A stretch of 52,940 nucleotides of DNA, from the NCBI GenBank assembly GCA_945873395.1, contig CAMCCW010000002.1:1-52940 (forward strand), given 5' to 3'. Source of the DNA: an uncultured Lactobacillus sp. Lineage in GTDB: Bacteria > Bacillota > Bacilli > Lactobacillales > Lactobacillaceae. The notes beneath the pieces are model-generated. The model was not told the DNA's origin and did no database searches. It saw only the letters and a program-made list of their open reading frames with translations. A program made the position numbers and the translations under genes. This document shows, one piece after another, positions 2,078 through 26,579 of this stretch (position 1 is the first letter of the stretch; each line of letters starts with the position of its first letter).

Positions 2078-3280
2078 ATGTATCTCGCAATCAATATTAT
2101 TGGTCTGATTGTCTTCCTTGCTATTGGTTGGCTGTTCTCAAAGAACCGCAAGGCCATTAACTGGAAGACGGTCGGGATCATGATTGTCATTAACCTTATC
2201 CTGGCATGGTTCCTGACTGGTTCCGCCGCAGGTCGTGCCGGTGTTAAGGCTGCTGCCGACGGTTTCGTTTGGATCGTTGACGTATCTGCAAAGGGTACGG
2301 TCTTCGCACTGGGTGATTGGTACAATCCGAAGAACTTGAACTTCATCTGTTCTGCATTGATGCCAATCCTGATGATTGTTCCACTGTTCGACATTTTGAC
2401 TTACATCGGTTTCCTGCCATGGATTATTAAGTGGATCGGACGTGGACTTTCATACATCACTGGTCAACCAAAGTTCGAATCTTTCTTCGCTGTTGAAATG
2501 ATGTTCTTAGGGAACACTGAAGTTCTGGCCGTTTCTGGTATGCAGATTCGGAAGATGAGCAAGGAACGTAACTTGACCTTGGCTATGATGTCAATGTCCT
2601 GTGTTACTGCCTCGATTCTTGGATCCTATATTCTGATGATGCCTGGTCAGTACATCCTGACCGCTGTTCCAATCAACATCATGAACGCATTGATTGCGAC
2701 GAGTATGTTGAACCCTGTTCAGGTTGCTCCTGAAGACGATACGATTGAAAAGGTTGGTAATACTGATAACGGTAAGAAGGAACCATTCTTCAGTTTCTTG
2801 GGTGACTCCATCCTAGGTGCTGGTAAGCTGATTCTGATCATTATCGCTAACGTTGTTGCCTTCGTTGCATTGGCTGCCCTGATCGACAAGATCTTAGGTC
2901 TGTTCTGGAAGCCACTGTCACTGGAAAGTATCCTTGGTGTCTGCATGTTCCCATTCTCCTGGCTGCTCGGTCTGCCAGTTCACCAAGCATGGGACTTGGC
3001 ACAAAACATGGGTATGAAGTTAGTTACTAACGAATTCGTTGTTATGGGTAAGGTTACCGGTTCTATTAACCACTACCCAGAACACTTGAAGGCTGTTCTG
3101 ACGGTCTTCGTTACCTCCTTCGCCAACTTTGGTACTTTAGGTATGATTATCGGTGCCTTCAAGGGTCTGGCAAACAAGGAAGATAACGACTACATTGCTC
3201 ACAACATTGGTTACCTGTTACTTTCTGGTATCTTGGTATCGCTGCTGTCTGCTGCCTTCGTCGGTCTGTTCGTTTGGTAA
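2078..3280 (+). CDS. nupC: NupC/CNT-family nucleoside transporter
   Basis: CNT-family sequence (GNTEVLAVSGMQIRKMS, TSFANFGTLGMIIGA); start MYLAINIIG at 2078 with AAGGGG SD. Confidence 0.9.
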   Translation: MYLAINIIGLIVFLAIGWLFSKNRKAINWKTVGIMIVINLILAWFLTGSAAGRAGVKAAADGFVWIVDVSAKGTVFALGDWYNPKNLNFICSALMPILMIVPLFDILTYIGFLPWIIKWIGRGLSYITGQPKFESFFAVEMMFLGNTEVLAVSGMQIRKMSKERNLTLAMMSMSCVTASILGSYILMMPGQYILTAVPINIMNALIATSMLNPVQVAPEDDTIEKVGNTDNGKKEPFFSFLGDSILGAGKLILIIIANVVAFVALAALIDKILGLFWKPLSLESILGVCMFPFSWLLGLPVHQAWDLAQNMGMKLVTNEFVVMGKVTGSINHYPEHLKAVLTVFVTSFANFGTLGMIIGAFKGLANKEDNDYIAHNIGYLLLSGILVSLLSAAFVGLFVW

Positions 3281-3284
3281 AATT

Positions 3285-3314
3285 AAAAAGCAGCTTATGA
3301 AGGCTGCTTTTTTT
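3285..3314 (+). terminator. Rho-independent terminator after nupC
   Basis: AAAAAGCAG..CTGCTTTTTTT hairpin and T-run. Confidence 0.8.
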
Positions 3315-3325
3315 AACCAAAGTTT

Positions 3326-3339
3326 CGTAAACGCTTGCA
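3326..3339. promoter_or_regulatory. cre-like site upstream of the nucleoside hydrolase
   Basis: CGTAAACGCTTGCA, 12/14 to cre. Confidence 0.3.
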
Positions 3340-3360
3340 TTTCTCAAGGAGGAATAGAAT

Positions 3361-4269
3361 ATGACTACTAAGATTATTATGGATACTGACCCAGGTATTG
3401 ATGACGCTGCTGCTTTAACGATGGCGATTAATGACCCATCGATTGATCTGAAACTGGTGACGGCGGTTGCTGGGAATGTTACGGTCGACAAGACCACGGC
3501 CAATGCTTTGAAGATTATTCACTTCTTTGGTAAGGACATTCCAGTAGCGGCTGGTGCAGAACAACCACTGATCAAGCCATTCGAAGATGCTGCTCGGATT
3601 CACGGTGAATCAGGGATGCCCGGCTATGACTTTGGCGATGACTATGGCGAGCCGATTAAGAAGACGGCGGTCGAAGCATTGCATGACGCTATTATGGCCG
3701 AAGATGAAGTCATCCTGGTACCAACTGGTTCTTACACCAACATCGCCCTTCTGTTCAGCGAATATCCAGAAGTAAAGAGCCACATCAAGAAGATCGTGGC
3801 AATGGGTGGTTCCATGTCTGGCGGTAACATGACTAGTGCAGCTGAATTTAACGTCTTTACTGACCCTGATGCTGCCCGGATCATGTACAATGCAGGCATT
3901 CCGATCGTCATGGTTGGCTTGGATGTTACCCTGAAGGCCCTCCTGACTAAGGACACGATCGAAAAGCTTGGTAAGATGAACAAGACTGGTGAAATGCTCC
4001 ATGCCCTGATTACCCACTACAACGATGGGACCGATGAAGGACGGCCAATGCACGACGTTAACACCATCTTTTACCTGCTCCACCCAGAAGCATTTACCAC
4101 CAAGAAGATGTGGGTTGATGTTCAGACTGAAGGCCCGGCCATTGGGGCAACGGTCGGTGACATCCGTGGTGCTTACCATGATGGCAAGACCAACGCAGAG
4201 GTTTGCCTGGATATCGACGCTGAATACTTCAACAAGTGGTTCTTGGATGAAGTCAGCAAGATGAACTAA
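3361..4269 (+). CDS. rihC: Ribonucleoside hydrolase (IunH/Rih family)
   Basis: N-terminal Ca-binding motif DTDPGIDDAAAL; MGGSMSGGNMTSAAEFNVFTDPDAA. Confidence 0.92.
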   Translation: MTTKIIMDTDPGIDDAAALTMAINDPSIDLKLVTAVAGNVTVDKTTANALKIIHFFGKDIPVAAGAEQPLIKPFEDAARIHGESGMPGYDFGDDYGEPIKKTAVEALHDAIMAEDEVILVPTGSYTNIALLFSEYPEVKSHIKKIVAMGGSMSGGNMTSAAEFNVFTDPDAARIMYNAGIPIVMVGLDVTLKALLTKDTIEKLGKMNKTGEMLHALITHYNDGTDEGRPMHDVNTIFYLLHPEAFTTKKMWVDVQTEGPAIGATVGDIRGAYHDGKTNAEVCLDIDAEYFNKWFLDEVSKMN

Positions 4270-4286
4270 AAAGATAATTGTGAGAG

Positions 4287-4327
4287 CATGACAGAAGTCG
4301 TAAACGACTTCTGTCATGTTCTTTTTT
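4287..4327 (+). terminator. Rho-independent terminator after the nucleoside hydrolase
   Basis: CATGACAGAAGTCG taaa CGACTTCTGTCATG then T-rich. Confidence 0.9.
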
Positions 4328-4332
4328 GTCGT

Positions 4333-4346
4333 ATTTCCCGGGAAAT
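4333..4346. promoter_or_regulatory. Noc-binding site (NBS) palindrome upstream of rsmG-noc-parAB
   Basis: ATTTCCCGGGAAAT perfect palindrome. Confidence 0.8.
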
Positions 4347-4374
4347 ATTATTGCTAGGCAGTGAGCGCTGGCAG

Positions 4375-4403
4375 TTGAAAGTAGGGCGCTTTTACGGTAC
4401 AGT
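4375..4403 (+). promoter_or_regulatory. Promoter of the rsmG-noc-parA-parB operon
   Basis: TTGAAA (4375-4380), 17-nt spacer, TACAGT (4398-4403). Confidence 0.6.
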
Positions 4404-4413
4404 AGTAGGGTAA

Positions 4414-4437
4414 CGTGAAACAATTTGCTGTTTCACG
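4414..4437. repeat. 9-bp inverted repeat (parS half-site-like) at the predicted mRNA 5' end
   Basis: CGTGAAACA-ATTTGC-TGTTTCACG. Confidence 0.7.
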
Positions 4438-4450
4438 AAAGGAGGATCTA

Positions 4451-5176
4451 ATGAATCCAGAACAATTTCAACAGGCGTTAGCGGATCACGGTATCACGCT
4501 GACTGCTAAACAATTAGAGCAATTTGCAACCTACTATCGGATGCTAGTTGAGAGTAATAAGCATGTTAACCTAACACGAATCACCGCCCAGGACGAGGTC
4601 TACCTGAAGCACTTTTATGACTCCATTACTGGAGCGCTGGCCGAGCCCCGGCTGCAGACTGAGCGCCTAACTTTATGTGATATCGGTGCTGGTGCTGGCT
4701 TCCCATCGTTACCACTAAAGATTGCTTTCCCACAACTCAAGGTGACGATTGTGGATTCACTCAATAAACGGATTGCATTTCTTGAAGCGCTGGTTACCGA
4801 GCTGGGATTGACCGACGTGGAATTGGTTCATGATCGGGCTGAGACCTTTAGTGCTAAGAAGAGTGCTCACCGAGAACAATTCGACGTAGTAACAGCTCGG
4901 GCAGTAGCACGACTGGCGGTCCTGAGTGAATTGTGTCTGCCGGCGGCTAAAGTTGGCGGTGAATTTATTGCTTACAAAGCCCTAGCAGCACCAGAAGAGT
5001 TACATGATGCTACTAAGGCAATTGCTAAGCTTGGTGGTCAGGTTCGACAAACGGTGAAATTGACGCTGCCGGGGACAGATGAGGAACGTAACATTATCCT
5101 GATCGATAAGACGGCGCCAACACCACAGAAATATCCACGGCGGCCGGGATTGCCGAACAAGAAGCCAATTCAATAG
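4451..5176 (+). CDS. rsmG: 16S rRNA (guanine(527)-N(7))-methyltransferase RsmG
   Basis: DIGAGAGFPSLPLKIAFP, VTARAVA motifs; start at 4451 after AAAGGAGG. Confidence 0.95.
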   Translation: MNPEQFQQALADHGITLTAKQLEQFATYYRMLVESNKHVNLTRITAQDEVYLKHFYDSITGALAEPRLQTERLTLCDIGAGAGFPSLPLKIAFPQLKVTIVDSLNKRIAFLEALVTELGLTDVELVHDRAETFSAKKSAHREQFDVVTARAVARLAVLSELCLPAAKVGGEFIAYKALAAPEELHDATKAIAKLGGQVRQTVKLTLPGTDEERNIILIDKTAPTPQKYPRRPGLPNKKPIQ

Positions 5177-5193
5177 CGTCAGGGGGAGAGAGT

Positions 5194-6141
5194 ATGGCAT
5201 TTTCACTATTTAACTTTGGTAAAAGTGATTCAAATAATAAGAATAAGGTTGTCGATATTAAGCTAGACCAGATTATTCCTAACCGTTACCAGCCGCGGAA
5301 GGTCTTTAACCAGGATGAAATTCGTGAGTTGGCCCACACAATTGAAGAACACGGTTTGCTGCAGCCAATCGTCCTTCGGGAATACGAGCCGGCAAAGTAC
5401 GAGATCATTGCTGGTGAACGGCGTTATCGGGCAATGAAGATGCTGGGCTGGGAGACGACTCCGGCCATCCTTAGAAAGATGACGGATGAGGAATCGGCAT
5501 CGCTGGCGCTGATTGAAAACCTTCAACGGGCTCAACTGAGTTCCGTGGAAGAGGCCCAGGCTTATCGGCAGTTGATGGACCTTAACCACCTGACCCAGGC
5601 GGCTCTCGCTAAGGGAATGGGGAAGAGTCAGTCCTTTGTTGCCAATAAGTTACGTCTGCTTAAGTTAATCACGCCTGTTCAGACGGCGATTCTTGATCAC
5701 CGGATCTCTGAGCGGCATGGGCGGGCATTGCTTGACCTGGATGAGAAACAGCAGCGGACCATGCTGATGCGGATCGTCAACGAGCACCTGACAGTGCGGC
5801 AAACGGAGGATGAGGTTGCCAAGGTCCTCGGCCGGCCAGTACCATCAGAAGTTGCTAAGCAGAAGAAACTTGCCAAGGAACAGGTAACAATGGCGACTGC
5901 TCCAACAAGCTCAGCCACTGAAGCCGCTAATAAGCCGGCCAAAAAGACCAAGAAGAAATCAACAAGGAAGAGTAAGTCAACGGCCAAGACGAACGCTAAG
6001 ATTGCTGATGGACGCTTGGCATTGAATACGATTAAGAAATCAATCAAGATGGCAACGGAAAATGGCTTTAAGGTTAACACCCGTGAAAAGGAAACGGGGA
6101 GTGCCTACCAGCTGACCATCGAGATTCCAAAGGAGCAGTAA
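5194..6141 (+). CDS. noc: Nucleoid occlusion protein Noc (ParB/RepB/Spo0J family)
   Basis: ParB-fold with IAGERRYRAMK, HTH (TQAALAKGMGKSQSFVANKLRLLKL), adjacent to rsmG and parAB; N-terminus MAFSLFNFGK resembles an amphipathic helix. Confidence 0.9.
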   Translation: MAFSLFNFGKSDSNNKNKVVDIKLDQIIPNRYQPRKVFNQDEIRELAHTIEEHGLLQPIVLREYEPAKYEIIAGERRYRAMKMLGWETTPAILRKMTDEESASLALIENLQRAQLSSVEEAQAYRQLMDLNHLTQAALAKGMGKSQSFVANKLRLLKLITPVQTAILDHRISERHGRALLDLDEKQQRTMLMRIVNEHLTVRQTEDEVAKVLGRPVPSEVAKQKKLAKEQVTMATAPTSSATEAANKPAKKTKKKSTRKSKSTAKTNAKIADGRLALNTIKKSIKMATENGFKVNTREKETGSAYQLTIEIPKEQ

Positions 6142-6153
6142 GGAGGCAATAGG

Positions 6154-6927
6154 ATGGGCGCAGTAATTGCGTTAGCAAACCAAAAAGGTGGCGTTGGTAA
6201 GACCACGACCAGTGTAAATCTGGGCGCCTGCCTTGCTGACCTGGGAAAGCGGGTATTGTTAATCGATCTTGATCCTCAGGGGAACGCCACCAGCGGCCTG
6301 GGAATTGAAAAAAGGCAGATTGAAAAGAGTATCTACGATGTCCTAATCGATGAAGATACGATGCTCAAAGACGTTATTAAGCCCTCTAGTCATCCGGGCC
6401 TCGATATTGCCCCGACGACGATTGCCCTCTCGGGAGCAGAAGTCGAACTGACTAATTTGATGGCGCGGGAGACCCGGTTGAAGGACTCCTTTGGGACGAT
6501 TAGGGATGATTACGACTTCATCTTGATTGACTGTCCGCCATCGCTGGGGTTGCTGACGATCAATGCCTTTACGGCGGCTGACTCGGTCTTGATTCCGGTC
6601 CAGAGTGAATACTATGCGCTGGAAGGGTTGAGTCAGTTACAGAACACGATCAACCTGGTTAAACGTCACTTCAACCCGCGGATGAAGGTCGAGGGGGTCT
6701 TACTGACGATGTACGACAAGCGGACCAACCTTGGTCAACAGGTCAATGCGGAGGTCCGGAAAGCCTTTGGCGACCGTGTCTATGAGACGGTGATCCCCCG
6801 GAATGTGCGGCTGTCGGAGGCCCCAAGCCATGGATTGGCAATCGTCGACTACGATAAACGGTCGACGGGAGCCCACGTGTATGAACAACTAGCAAAGGAA
6901 GTGTTGGCAAAACATGGCAAAGCGTAA
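6154..6927 (+). CDS. parA: ParA/Soj chromosome segregation ATPase
   Basis: Deviant Walker A NQKGGVGKTTTSVNLG. Confidence 0.95.
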   Translation: MGAVIALANQKGGVGKTTTSVNLGACLADLGKRVLLIDLDPQGNATSGLGIEKRQIEKSIYDVLIDEDTMLKDVIKPSSHPGLDIAPTTIALSGAEVELTNLMARETRLKDSFGTIRDDYDFILIDCPPSLGLLTINAFTAADSVLIPVQSEYYALEGLSQLQNTINLVKRHFNPRMKVEGVLLTMYDKRTNLGQQVNAEVRKAFGDRVYETVIPRNVRLSEAPSHGLAIVDYDKRSTGAHVYEQLAKEVLAKHGKA

Positions 6928-7801
6928 AACAGGCGCCCTGGGTCGTGGAATTGAGGCCCTCTTTGAGGAAAACACTATTGCGCCCCCGGACGAGGGTGAA
7001 CAGGTCCGAGATATTAAGCTGACGGCCATCCGGGCCAACCCTTACCAGCCTCGGCGGACCTTTGATCAAGCCGCACTGAAGGAGCTGGCTGCCTCAATAG
7101 AGAAGTCAGGAGTTTTCCAGCCGATTATTTTGCGGCAACCTGATCCGCAGCTGGAACGCTATGAGTTGGTAGCCGGCGAACGTCGCTTCCGGGCATCCAA
7201 GCTGGCTAAGCAGTCGACAATTCCCGCAATTGTCCGGACAATGAGTGACGAACAGATGATGGAAATTGCTGTCTTGGAAAACCTGCAACGGGAGGATCTG
7301 ACGCCTCTTGAAGAGGCCCAGGCCTACCAAACCTTAATGGAAAAACTATCACTGACTCAAGCCCAGGTTGCGGCTAAACTCGGCAAGAGTCGGCCATATA
7401 TTGCCAACTACCTGCGCTTACTAGGGCTGCCTGCGCCAATCAAGGAGGCTTTAAACGCCGGCAAGCTGTCGATGGGGCAGGCCCGGACGATTCTCGGACT
7501 GAAGAACAAGCGTCAGTTGACTCAGCTGGCTAACCGGGCGGTGAAGCAGAATCTGACGGTTCGACAGTTGGAAAAGATCGTTGCTCAGATGAATGGGACT
7601 GCTAAGGAGAAGGACCAGCATAAGCGACAACGCAAGCCAGTCTACATTCGGGAGGCTGAGAACCAGCTCCAGAGTAAGTTTGGTACTAAGGTTGCGGTTT
7701 CCCAGAGCCGGAAGCGCGGCAGCGGGAAGATCGAGATTCCGTATAACTCAAACGATGATTTGACCAGGATCTTGGAACTGCTTGATATTTCACTCGATTA
7801 G
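6914..7801 (+). CDS. parB: ParB/Spo0J chromosome partitioning protein
   Basis: MAKRKTGALGRGIEALF, VAGERRFRASK; overlaps parA by 14 nt. Confidence 0.95.
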   Translation: MAKRKTGALGRGIEALFEENTIAPPDEGEQVRDIKLTAIRANPYQPRRTFDQAALKELAASIEKSGVFQPIILRQPDPQLERYELVAGERRFRASKLAKQSTIPAIVRTMSDEQMMEIAVLENLQREDLTPLEEAQAYQTLMEKLSLTQAQVAAKLGKSRPYIANYLRLLGLPAPIKEALNAGKLSMGQARTILGLKNKRQLTQLANRAVKQNLTVRQLEKIVAQMNGTAKEKDQHKRQRKPVYIREAENQLQSKFGTKVAVSQSRKRGSGKIEIPYNSNDDLTRILELLDISLD

Positions 7802-20614: not shown

Positions 20615-21577
20615 CTATTTGCCATGATTGCGACGGTGGGCCTGCTGGGCGGCGCGGGTGTTCCGCTCCCAGAATACTCCGTCTGTGTAGCCTTGGATGT
20701 TATCGCCTGTCTTGGTTTGCTGAAGGCGGTATTCACCCCAAGCGGTGTAGAGGAGGCTCTGTTCAATCCCGATGAAATGGCGATTAAGCTTCTTGGCGGT
20801 GACCAGGCTAGAGCCGGCGCCGGCAAAGGGGTCAAGGATCAGGTCGCCAGGATTGGTACTGGCCAGGATGACCTTGGCCAACAGCTTCTCTGGCTTTTGA
20901 GTCGGGTGTCCAGTATTTTCAGGCATTGACCAGTAGGGGATCGAGATGTCATCCCAGAAGTTAGAGGGCATGGTGTCACGGAAACGGCCGGCCGCCGTCT
21001 CCTGCCAATCGCGAGCCTTGCCAGCAACGCGGTAGGGGGCGATGACCTGGCGGCGCTGTTTGACCTGGTCAACGTTGAAGGTGTAATTGCTCTGATCACG
21101 GACAAGGAACCAAATATCCTCCATGCCGTTTTTCCAGTTGGTCTGGGCGCCTCGGCCCTTCTCACGTTGCCAGGTAATCCGATTCTTGATGGTGAAGTTG
21201 CGGGCAAGGACCGGGGCCAGGGCAATACTAGTTTGCCAATCGGCAAAGACGTAGAGACTAGCGTGTGGCTTCAACTTAGGGATGAGAGCGTCGATCCAAC
21301 GCTGGGTGTAGGTTTGATAGTCCTGATCACTCATCTTCTTAAAATCGAGGCCATCGTACTTCTTGTCGAGGTTATAGGGCGGATCGACAATTGCCAGATC
21401 AGCAACTTGATCCGGGAGTTTTTGAAGAATATTAAAAGCGTCTCCGTTAATGGTCTGATCGATGATGGACGCCAGTTTATCAAGTGAATCATCCTCGTGA
21501 AGAATGCTTTCGAGGACGCCAGCCGGGGCATCCGCTAGCGTAAAGTCGATCGTCTTGTTACGTGCCGATTTGGTCAT
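20615..21577 (-). CDS. Site-specific DNA methyltransferase, beta-type order (DPPY before FAGAG)
   Basis: VDPPYNLDKKYDGLDF, HPTQKPEKLLAKVILAS, ILDPFAGAGSSLVTAKKLNRHFIGIE; start MTKSARN at 21577 after AGGAGG. Confidence 0.9.
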   Translation of the reverse strand: MTKSARNKTIDFTLADAPAGVLESILHEDDSLDKLASIIDQTINGDAFNILQKLPDQVADLAIVDPPYNLDKKYDGLDFKKMSDQDYQTYTQRWIDALIPKLKPHASLYVFADWQTSIALAPVLARNFTIKNRITWQREKGRGAQTNWKNGMEDIWFLVRDQSNYTFNVDQVKQRRQVIAPYRVAGKARDWQETAAGRFRDTMPSNFWDDISIPYWSMPENTGHPTQKPEKLLAKVILASTNPGDLILDPFAGAGSSLVTAKKLNRHFIGIEQSLLYTAWGEYRLQQTKTGDNIQGYTDGVFWERNTRAAQQAHRRNHGK

Positions 21578-21658
21578 TTTGGGCCTCCTTGCCAAAATAA
21601 ATACTAGTAAAGATCATACCATACCAGGCGCGGGACATGATAAATTTGTCAAAGAGTG

Positions 21659-21686
21659 TTGACAACCGCATAGAAAGCGTTTAGTA
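21659..21686 (+). promoter_or_regulatory. pyr operon promoter
   Basis: TTGACA (21659-21664), 17-nt spacer, TAGTAT. Confidence 0.7.
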
Positions 21687-21704
21687 TTATGGGCAATCGA
21701 AATA

Positions 21705-21798
21705 CCTTTAACTTAGTCCAGCGAGGCTAGGAAGGATTTAACTGAGCGTTAGAATATCTCGGCCTTCTTCTTAGTGCACCACTGAGGAGGCCGTTTTT
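21705..21798 (+). promoter_or_regulatory. PyrR-dependent attenuator 1 (binding loop plus terminator)
   Basis: CCTTTAACTTAGTCCAGCGAGGCTAGGAAGG with hexaloop CAGCGA; terminator CGGCCTTC..GAGGCCGTTTTT at 21760-21798. Confidence 0.85.
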
Positions 21799-21890
21799 AT
21801 GCAGAATTTCCCGGGCCGACTCAGGGTGTCGGAAGGAAGATTCGCCCACTTAATCAAATAGGTATTTTTGAAAGAACTGAGCCATTTAAT

Positions 21891-22008
21891 TGTCTCCCGT
21901 GAGAGCAGAATCGGTGCAGTGTTTTCAGCCTATCTAACATAAGCAAAAACACACGAAAAGCAGCGTGACCGCAAACCAGGAGACTGGATCGGTTGACGCT
22001 GCTTTTGT
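21891..22008 (+). promoter_or_regulatory. Probable PyrR-dependent attenuator 2
   Basis: TGTCTCCCGTGAGAGCAG with hexaloop CCGTGA fitting CNGNGA; strong terminator AAAAGCAGCGT..ACGCTGCTTTT at 21957-22006. Confidence 0.65.
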
Positions 22009-22039
22009 CACTTATGCAAAGAAAAAGGAGATCTATTTG

Positions 22040-22969
22040 ATGATTAGTACTGAACGAATTCAACCAAACGTTGTGACTGTTGCCGACATGGATGCCGAGG
22101 ATGCCCTGGACCTGATCAACGAGGCCGAGGAATACAAGCATGACAAGAAGGCCGAACTTACCCGGCCAGCCTACGCCGCTAACCTCTTCTTCGAAAACTC
22201 AACCCGGACCAAGACCAGCTTCCAAATGGCCGAAATGAAGTTGGGGATGCACGTAATGCAGTTTGAAGCGGGTACCAGCTCTGTCAAGAAGGGGGAGAGC
22301 CTCTACGACACTGTCAAGACGATGGAATCCATCGGGGTTGATATCGCAGTTATTCGCCACCCCGAAAACGAATACTACAAGGAACTGATCAAGCACCCCG
22401 GTTTGAAGATCGGGATTGCCAACGGTGGTGACGGCAGTGGCCAACACCCATCCCAATGCCTGCTCGACATGATGACGATCCACGAAGAATTCGGTAACTT
22501 CAAGGGCCTCAAGGTACTGATCATCGGTGACCTGTCCCACTCCCGGGTTGCTCACTCCAACGCCATGATGCTCAACCGGCTGGGCGCTGAGGTTTACTTC
22601 GCCGGCCCACAGGAATGGTATGATGATGAACTGGCCCAATACGGGACTTTCGGCGACTTCGATGAACTGCTTCCACAAATGGACGTGGTCAACCTGCTCC
22701 GGGTTCAGAATGAACGGCTGTCCGGTGCGGAAAACGGTGCATTCAATGCTGAGAAGTACCACCAGCAATACGGCCTGACTAAGGAACGTTACAACAAGAT
22801 GAAGAAGGGCGCCATCATCATGCACCCGGCACCGGTTAACCGGGGCGTCGAAATCGACGGTGACCTGGTTGAAGCTCCGAACTCCCGGATCTTCCGCCAG
22901 ATGCAAAACGGGGTCTTCGTTCGGATGGCCATCCTGAGTCGGATCCTGCGCTACAAGGGCATTATGTAA
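22040..22969 (+). CDS. pyrB: Aspartate carbamoyltransferase catalytic subunit
   Basis: [38 protein letters not shown]; start 22040. Confidence 0.96.
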
Positions 22970-22982
22970 CGGGGGCGCCACT

Positions 22983-25923
<2,941 letters not shown>

Positions 25924-25925
25924 TT

Positions 25926-26579
25926 ATGACTTATTCACAAAGAGTTGCTAAGGCATTATTAGACATTCACGCGGTTACCCTGAGTCCGGACAAACCCTAC
26001 ACGTGGGCAAGCGGTTTGAAGTCCCCAATCTACACGGACAACCGCCTGACAATCTCTTACCCAGATGTGCGCCAAGCCATCTATAATGGGATGGAAGAAC
26101 AGATCAACCTCCACTTTGCGGATGCAGACGTGATCGCCGGAACCGCAACGGCCGGGATTCCACACGCCGCTTGGGTTGCCCAGGAGATGGGCTTACCACT
26201 GGTTTACGTGCGGTCTAAGCCGAAGGACCATGGCCAGGGTCACCAGATTGAAGGGGTCCTCAAGCCGGGTCAAAAGGTAGTTGTAATCGACGACCTGATC
26301 TCCACCGGCGGCAGTGTCCTCAACGCGGTGCGGGCAATCAATAACACTGGTGCCCAAGTCATCGGCGTGGTTGCCGTCTTCACCTACCAACTCCAGGCAG
26401 CCGAACAGAACTTCCTGGCCAACGACTTGAAATACTATGCCGTTACCGACTACACGACCCTGATCAAGGAAGCTCAGGCCACCGACCAGATCAGCGCTGA
26501 CCATCTGAAATCTCTCCAACAATGGCGTGAAGATCCGGTCAAGTGGAGCAAGGAGCACAGCCTCAATGCGGTTGGCTAA
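25926..26579 (+). CDS. pyrE: Orotate phosphoribosyltransferase
   Basis: GTATAGIPHAAWVAQEMGLPLVYVRSKPKDHG, VVVIDDLISTGGSV. Confidence 0.96.
   Translation: MTYSQRVAKALLDIHAVTLSPDKPYTWASGLKSPIYTDNRLTISYPDVRQAIYNGMEEQINLHFADADVIAGTATAGIPHAAWVAQEMGLPLVYVRSKPKDHGQGHQIEGVLKPGQKVVVIDDLISTGGSVLNAVRAINNTGAQVIGVVAVFTYQLQAAEQNFLANDLKYYAVTDYTTLIKEAQATDQISADHLKSLQQWREDPVKWSKEHSLNAVG

Follow-up and report, generated by a model that had tools for sequence, protein, structure and literature searches.

The window, meaning the whole 52.9 kb stretch of DNA that was analysed, comes from a draft Limosilactobacillus genome, of which it is contig 2; judged by pyrB, the named species nearest to this genome are Candidatus L. 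gallistercoris and L. pontis. It carries a pyrB-C-D-F-E operon spanning 22040-26579, with pyrB as the first gene, and the pyrB leader (21659 to pyrB at 22040) contains two PyrR-type attenuators about 180 nt apart without an intervening gene. Divergent to the pyr promoter, on the minus strand at 20615-21595, lies a DNA methyltransferase-like ORF (motif DPPYN). The features of the leader are listed below.

21659-21687, plus strand: promoter of the pyr operon, TTGACA (21659), 17 nt, TAGTAT (21682), with 10 of 12 consensus matches
21700-21739, plus strand: BL1, hairpin of the canonical PyrR-binding type (anti-antiterminator 1), with UUUAA at 21707 and AGUCCAGCGAGGCU at 21716-21729
21700-21707, plus strand: 5′ strand of BL1 (AAAUACCU), candidate partner of 21860-21867, complementarity kept through change in Limosilactobacillus leaders
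21727-21735, plus strand: 5′ strand of antiterminator 1 (CUAGGAAGG), pairing with 21763-21774 in the nascent-transcript fold to 21784
21760-21798, plus strand: terminator 1 (GGCCUUCUUC...GAGGAGGCC, UUUUU), -18.2 kcal, z -4.2, listed by the terminator scan
21799-21861, plus strand: 20-codon ORF after GAGGAG in terminator 1, with a good Shine-Dalgarno sequence, not conserved, probably not a gene
21860-21867, plus strand: AGGUAUUU, conserved post-terminator segment, able to pair with 21700-21707 or (as AUAGGU) with GCCUAU at 21928-21933, invariant in 13 distinct clade-A sequences
21876-21920, plus strand: BL2, variant putative PyrR-binding hairpin, lower stem ACUG-GCC/GGU-CAGU, UUUAA, hexaloop CCGUGA, with UCUCCCGUGAGAGC at 21893-21906
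21892-21897, plus strand: GUCUCC of BL2, candidate strand of antiterminator 2, pairing with GGAGAC at 21979-21984 in the loop of hairpin 2
21956-22006, plus strand: terminator-like hairpin 2, 16 bp outer stem, U-run UUUUGU, -28.7 kcal, z -5.9
22024-22033, plus strand: Shine-Dalgarno region of pyrB (AAAGGAGATC), read from the sequence
22040-22969, plus strand: pyrB, aspartate carbamoyltransferase, from the ORF list and the pyrB tree

A preliminary description, made from the letters alone, had reported two tandem PyrR-type attenuators before pyrB with no gene between them, and both hairpins were recovered in place. The motif TTNAA-N5-TCCNGNGAG occurs twice in the window, at the two attenuators and nowhere else (0.02 occurrences expected), and none of 100 shuffled windows carries two copies. 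Across the whole genome, a looser motif finds both attenuators, the leader of a uracil permease and two further places, and the motif read backwards is not found. The window is also free of pyrR, as had been claimed, the best tblastn match in its 52.9 kb having an E value of 2. The gap between the attenuators, given earlier as about 100 nt of apparently non-coding DNA, is shorter (about 77 nt from terminator 1 to BL2) and does appear to be non-coding. Its 20-codon ORF is found in three genomes (G000, G026 and G001), is shortened in G012 and has no ATG in G028 and G062; a leader peptide at this place was rejected for want of conservation among relatives.

Attenuator 1 is the classic PyrR loop with a terminator that it was taken for. 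Its hairpin fits the consensus ARUCCNGNGAGGYU with UUUAA as internal strand, and BL1 is kept in 15 of 15 clade-A pyrB leaders. Antiterminator 1, formed by CUAGGAAGG and CCUUCUUCUUAG, appears in the nascent fold before terminator 1 is complete, so that, by folds and terminator scan together, a pyr gene is preceded by an antiterminator and an intrinsic terminator that exclude each other. The suggested scan with the Rfam PyrR model (RF00515) succeeded in part: the full model aligns to attenuator 1 at 21701-21800 with 48.4 bits (E 1.2e-5), which is below the gathering score of 54 and therefore gives no default Rfam match, and attenuator 2 is left without a match. In the leaders L208 (G283) and L210 (G266) the first hairpin is AGUCCGAGAGACC, with the usual loop short by two bases, and BL2 is intact.

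The second hairpin, described as having a CNGNGA hexaloop, presents CCGUGA on a stem in two parts that shows covariation and has UUUAA in its 5′ strand, and retains the arrangement UUUAA-N5-UCCNGNGAG. With respect to the published consensus ARUCCNGNGAGGYU, BL2 agrees in the core UCCNGNGAG but not in the outer flanking positions, hence not in full, and RF00515 yields no match to it even at E 10. BL2 occurs in all 15 readable clade-A pyrB leaders, the site being unreadable in G072, where the contig ends, and in G020, where the operon is rearranged. Its core and UUUAA are invariant across 13 distinct clade-A sequences, whereas the preceding spacer varies. Several genera share this architecture, in 40 distinct sequences with a mean z of -2.4 against shuffles of the flanks. 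All keep UCC-N-G-N-GAG in the loop and UUNAA in the strand, except that one species pair has UCAA. The lower stem varies on both sides (ACC/GGU, GACG/CGUC, ACCAU/AUGGU and UUUCAU/AUGAAA), a covariation that is taken from per-sequence folds; RNAalifold on automatic alignments, in which bulged stems are misaligned, recovered neither the whole BL2 hairpin nor any pair with changes on both sides.

Hairpin 2 had been called a very strong terminator ending at 22006. The strength of the stem is borne out by its energy and z score, its quality as a terminator less so, given the short U-run and its absence from the terminator scan. Pairing of GUCUCC with GGAGAC is seen in the nascent folds to 21985 and 21995, and in 36 leaders the BL2 5′ strand and loop are more complementary to the inner part of their own hairpin 2 (-13.6 kcal) than to those of others (-12.4 kcal; permutation p 0.001, with related sequences treated as independent). 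In the folds, no antiterminator 2 comes near the stability of the completed hairpin 2, and read-through at attenuator 2 is therefore perhaps kinetic only.

Variants of this second element are found in related pyrB leaders. In L091 (G034), L092 (G009), L093 (G074) and L094 (G021) the second PyrR-type hairpin is not followed by a terminator; a CCUCC strand, to which BL2 is complementary, can pair with the pyrB Shine-Dalgarno sequence GGAGG, and from their sequences these leaders seem to combine attenuation of transcription with a second attenuator that acts on translation. In L088, L089 and L090 (G016, G067 and G035), ACAGUGAG replaces UCCNGNGAG in a hairpin at the BL2 position, with UUUAA before it, and this hairpin may be a diverged BL2.

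The origin of the arrangement can be approached through the sister genus Paucilactobacillus, in which the order is attenuator 1-pyrR-attenuator 2-pyrB (G200, which is P. suebicus, G118, G079 and others). The proposed comparison with relatives that keep pyrR thus finds the gene between the same two hairpins and before the same downstream gene, and the window pyrB groups as sister to Paucilactobacillus pyrB (100/98). The window BL2 is 83-87% identical to the hairpin of attenuator 2 in the Paucilactobacillus pyrR-pyrB intergenic region; against the BL2 of Paucilactobacillus and g22 the likeness has z scores of 11-13 and identities of up to 87%, against its own BL1 only 55% and z 0.7, which is the level of shuffled sequences. 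This comparison contradicts a duplication of attenuator 1 as the source of attenuator 2, and the presence of the same second hairpin at the same place in pyrR-containing relatives weighs in the same direction; that UUUAA and UCCNGNGAG stand at equal spacing in both attenuators is what a copying event in place of the loss of pyrR from between them would offer in its favour, and such an event is highly improbable.

The gene itself has not disappeared. A genome without any pyrR would have contradicted the preliminary description, but one is present, unlinked, at G000:C72:3579-4109 (NF003549, 250.7 bits); it is the sole copy and, in the PyrR tree, orthologous (100/98) to the operon pyrR of Paucilactobacillus, whose genomes each have one pyrR, in the operon. 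In that tree all unlinked Limosilactobacillus copies group together (100/100), joined by the Paucilactobacillus operon copies (100/98) and next by the operon copy of G173 (99/95). The new site, downstream of purA and an orfX, is common to most of the genus. An order with pyrR between the attenuators also occurs in G173 and in the divergent second pyrB operon (clade B) of other Limosilactobacillus, which makes it the older state. From the PyrR tree and this common location, a single departure of pyrR at the root of the genus is most likely, with its two attenuators left behind. Of the scar of pyrR or pyrP loss or relocation that had been proposed, the relocation of pyrR is thus upheld by the Paucilactobacillus order, the BL2 identity and both trees, while the loss of pyrP is not: relatives with a gene at this place have pyrR alone, and the uracil permease of the present genome is separate with its own PyrR site. 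A former pyrP between the two sites was rejected, no relative examined having it there. Between the attenuators, blastn-short found no pyrR remnant, and a LIK-stop likeness to the ends of clade-B PyrR was discarded as too short to count. The relocated pyrR is preceded by a PyrR site of its own (L226, 3465-3554, on G000:C72) with the degenerate loop GGCACAGUGAGGCC; in the corresponding site of relatives, a U-A pair replaces the loop-closing C-G pair (GAUUCCGUGAAAUC).

The tandem arrangement is not peculiar to this genome; it is frequent among Limosilactobacillus and recurs elsewhere in the family. A pattern scan found tandem sites in at least 29 of 301 Lactobacillaceae genomes, in seven genera, against 0 in the read-backwards control; this is a lower bound, since the scan covered two spacing classes and the third (154-184 nt), which includes the window, lies outside it. 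Most tandems for which the position of pyrB is known stand directly before it. Tandems without pyrR are also found in the genera g22, g30 and g37 and in clade-B Limosilactobacillus, and the pyrR that remains in g22 belongs to another PyrR branch. The two attenuators are found together before pyrD in G003, G022 and G036 and before pyrE in G024, and judged from these contexts the pair appears to behave as a unit. In six species, attenuator 1 stands alone before pyrE and BL2 is lost (L011, L012, L014, L015, L016 and L018). In L224 (G020), the pyr operon (3167-7688) has the reversed order pyrE-F-D-C-B; the coding strand of the 12 kb region there lacks any UCCNGNGAG site, and PyrR control of the operon therefore seems to be lost.

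These distributions bear on the question of whether attenuator 2 is functional. Attenuator 1 could be the only regulatory one, with BL2 a decaying remnant of the attenuator that once lay between pyrR and pyrB, and with hairpin 2 a spacer or a partial terminator that acts constitutively, as the off-consensus flanks of BL2, its invisibility to Rfam and its loss from the six pyrE leaders, which derive from this leader type, would suggest. Such decay is improbable, however, for an element whose core and UUUAA are held invariant beside a changing spacer, which stays with attenuator 1 before pyrD or pyrE and which recurs in tandems of other genera.

The reading preferred here, with a probability of roughly 0.8, is that the leader places two transcription attenuators under PyrR control one after the other, an arrangement that arose through the departure of pyrR from the pyr operon. 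The ancestral order is promoter-attenuator 1-pyrR-attenuator 2-pyrB, as in Paucilactobacillus, and the comparison shows that in the Limosilactobacillus line pyrR passed to the purA region, the attenuators being left adjacent. PyrR-UMP is known to stabilize an anti-antiterminator hairpin and thereby to block the antiterminator (PMC7430163), a mechanism demonstrated in S. pneumoniae on a leader with one site (PMC6296669), and by analogy we infer PyrR action on both sites and a two-step behaviour. At high UMP, PyrR-UMP would hold BL1, antiterminator 1 would not form and terminator 1 would stop transcription; polymerases that leak through would reach BL2, which PyrR would hold likewise, leaving hairpin 2 free to form. 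At low UMP, BL1 would open into the CUAGGAAGG:CCUUCUUCUUAG pairing, and the opening of BL2 would free its 5′ strand and loop to pair with the inner part of hairpin 2. The single unlinked PyrR would have to serve both attenuators. The pathway thus probably now has two consecutive UMP-sensing checkpoints, and since two checks multiply, repression would be expected to be tighter than with one site.

An extension of this serial reading would couple the two switches through the conserved segment AGGUAUUU. As long as BL1 is open, the segment could pair with the 5′ strand of that hairpin; with BL1 held by PyrR, it could turn to GCCUAU (21928-21933), below BL2, and the state of attenuator 1 would be passed on to attenuator 2. 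In the Limosilactobacillus set, complementarity is stronger within leaders (-8.37 kcal) than after swapping (-7.31 kcal; p<1/3000, n=51, including a few loci from other families, with related sequences that are not independent), and pairing is kept through changed sequences (UACCU:AGGUA, UGUCCU:AGGACA/AGGGCA, AAAGUCC:GGACUU and ACAAAuuUACCUUU:AAAGGUAuUUUGU). Furthermore, CUAGGUAUUUU survives in the six pyrE leaders that lack BL2; there, an ACCUAG that overlaps the pyrE Shine-Dalgarno sequence is a possible pairing partner of CUAGGU. On the other hand, the helix of AGGUAUUU with AAAUACCU has a probability of at most 0.24 in window folds, even with antiterminator 1 forced; the AUAGGU:GCCUAU helix, which extends BL2, has 0.8-0.9 in both states, the BL1-forced state being a rough control, as its imposed pairs stand two bases out of register; and shuffles of single leaders give p values of up to 0.26. 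In other contigs, mostly of the Bacillus group, complementarity of the AGGUAUUU type does not exceed chance (own -6.0, swapped -6.48, p 0.97, n=31). Coupling is thus doubtful and is put forward tentatively; if it were real, one PyrR-binding hairpin would control two successive decisions, the second taken at hairpin 2 or, where hairpin 2 is lost, at a ribosome-binding site.

If two serial attenuators did arise in this manner, a leader RNA with two sensors can evolve by a simple step, the removal of a regulator gene from between its two targets. The relatives offer a natural series in which to follow the effect of a second copy, with pyrR between the sites, with nothing between them, with pyrD or pyrE behind the pair, or with the first site only. 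In practical terms, Rfam, and annotation built on it, miss predicted pyrB-proximal PyrR sites in this part of the Lactobacillaceae. A limited literature search, with most subscription journals outside it, found no account of tandem PyrR sites without an intervening gene.

Among known systems, the pyr operon of Bacillus subtilis has three PyrR attenuators, before pyrR, pyrP and pyrB (PMC7430163). The present leader shares with it the anti-antiterminator hairpin responding to PyrR-UMP, here predicted, and the use of more than one attenuator serially in one operon; it differs in that both attenuators lie in one untranslated leader with pyrR elsewhere, whereas in B. subtilis a gene follows each. 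Paucilactobacillus is closest, with the same two hairpins, order and downstream gene, but with the only pyrR of the genome between them. With respect to the Rfam element RF00515, attenuator 1 is a full-length relative below the gathering score and attenuator 2 goes unrecognized. In the same family, pyr genes are under PyrR control in L. plantarum, which has PyrR1 and PyrR2 (PMC3582564); G173, in which one pyrR lies in the operon and another is unlinked, is comparable to it, while in the present genome the only pyrR, itself unlinked, belongs to the operon lineage. Tandem glycine riboswitches (PMC3766115) likewise have the same sensor twice in front of a single gene; unlike these, the PyrR sites would bind a protein, each has its own expression platform, and their pairing would have originated from the removal of a gene from between them.
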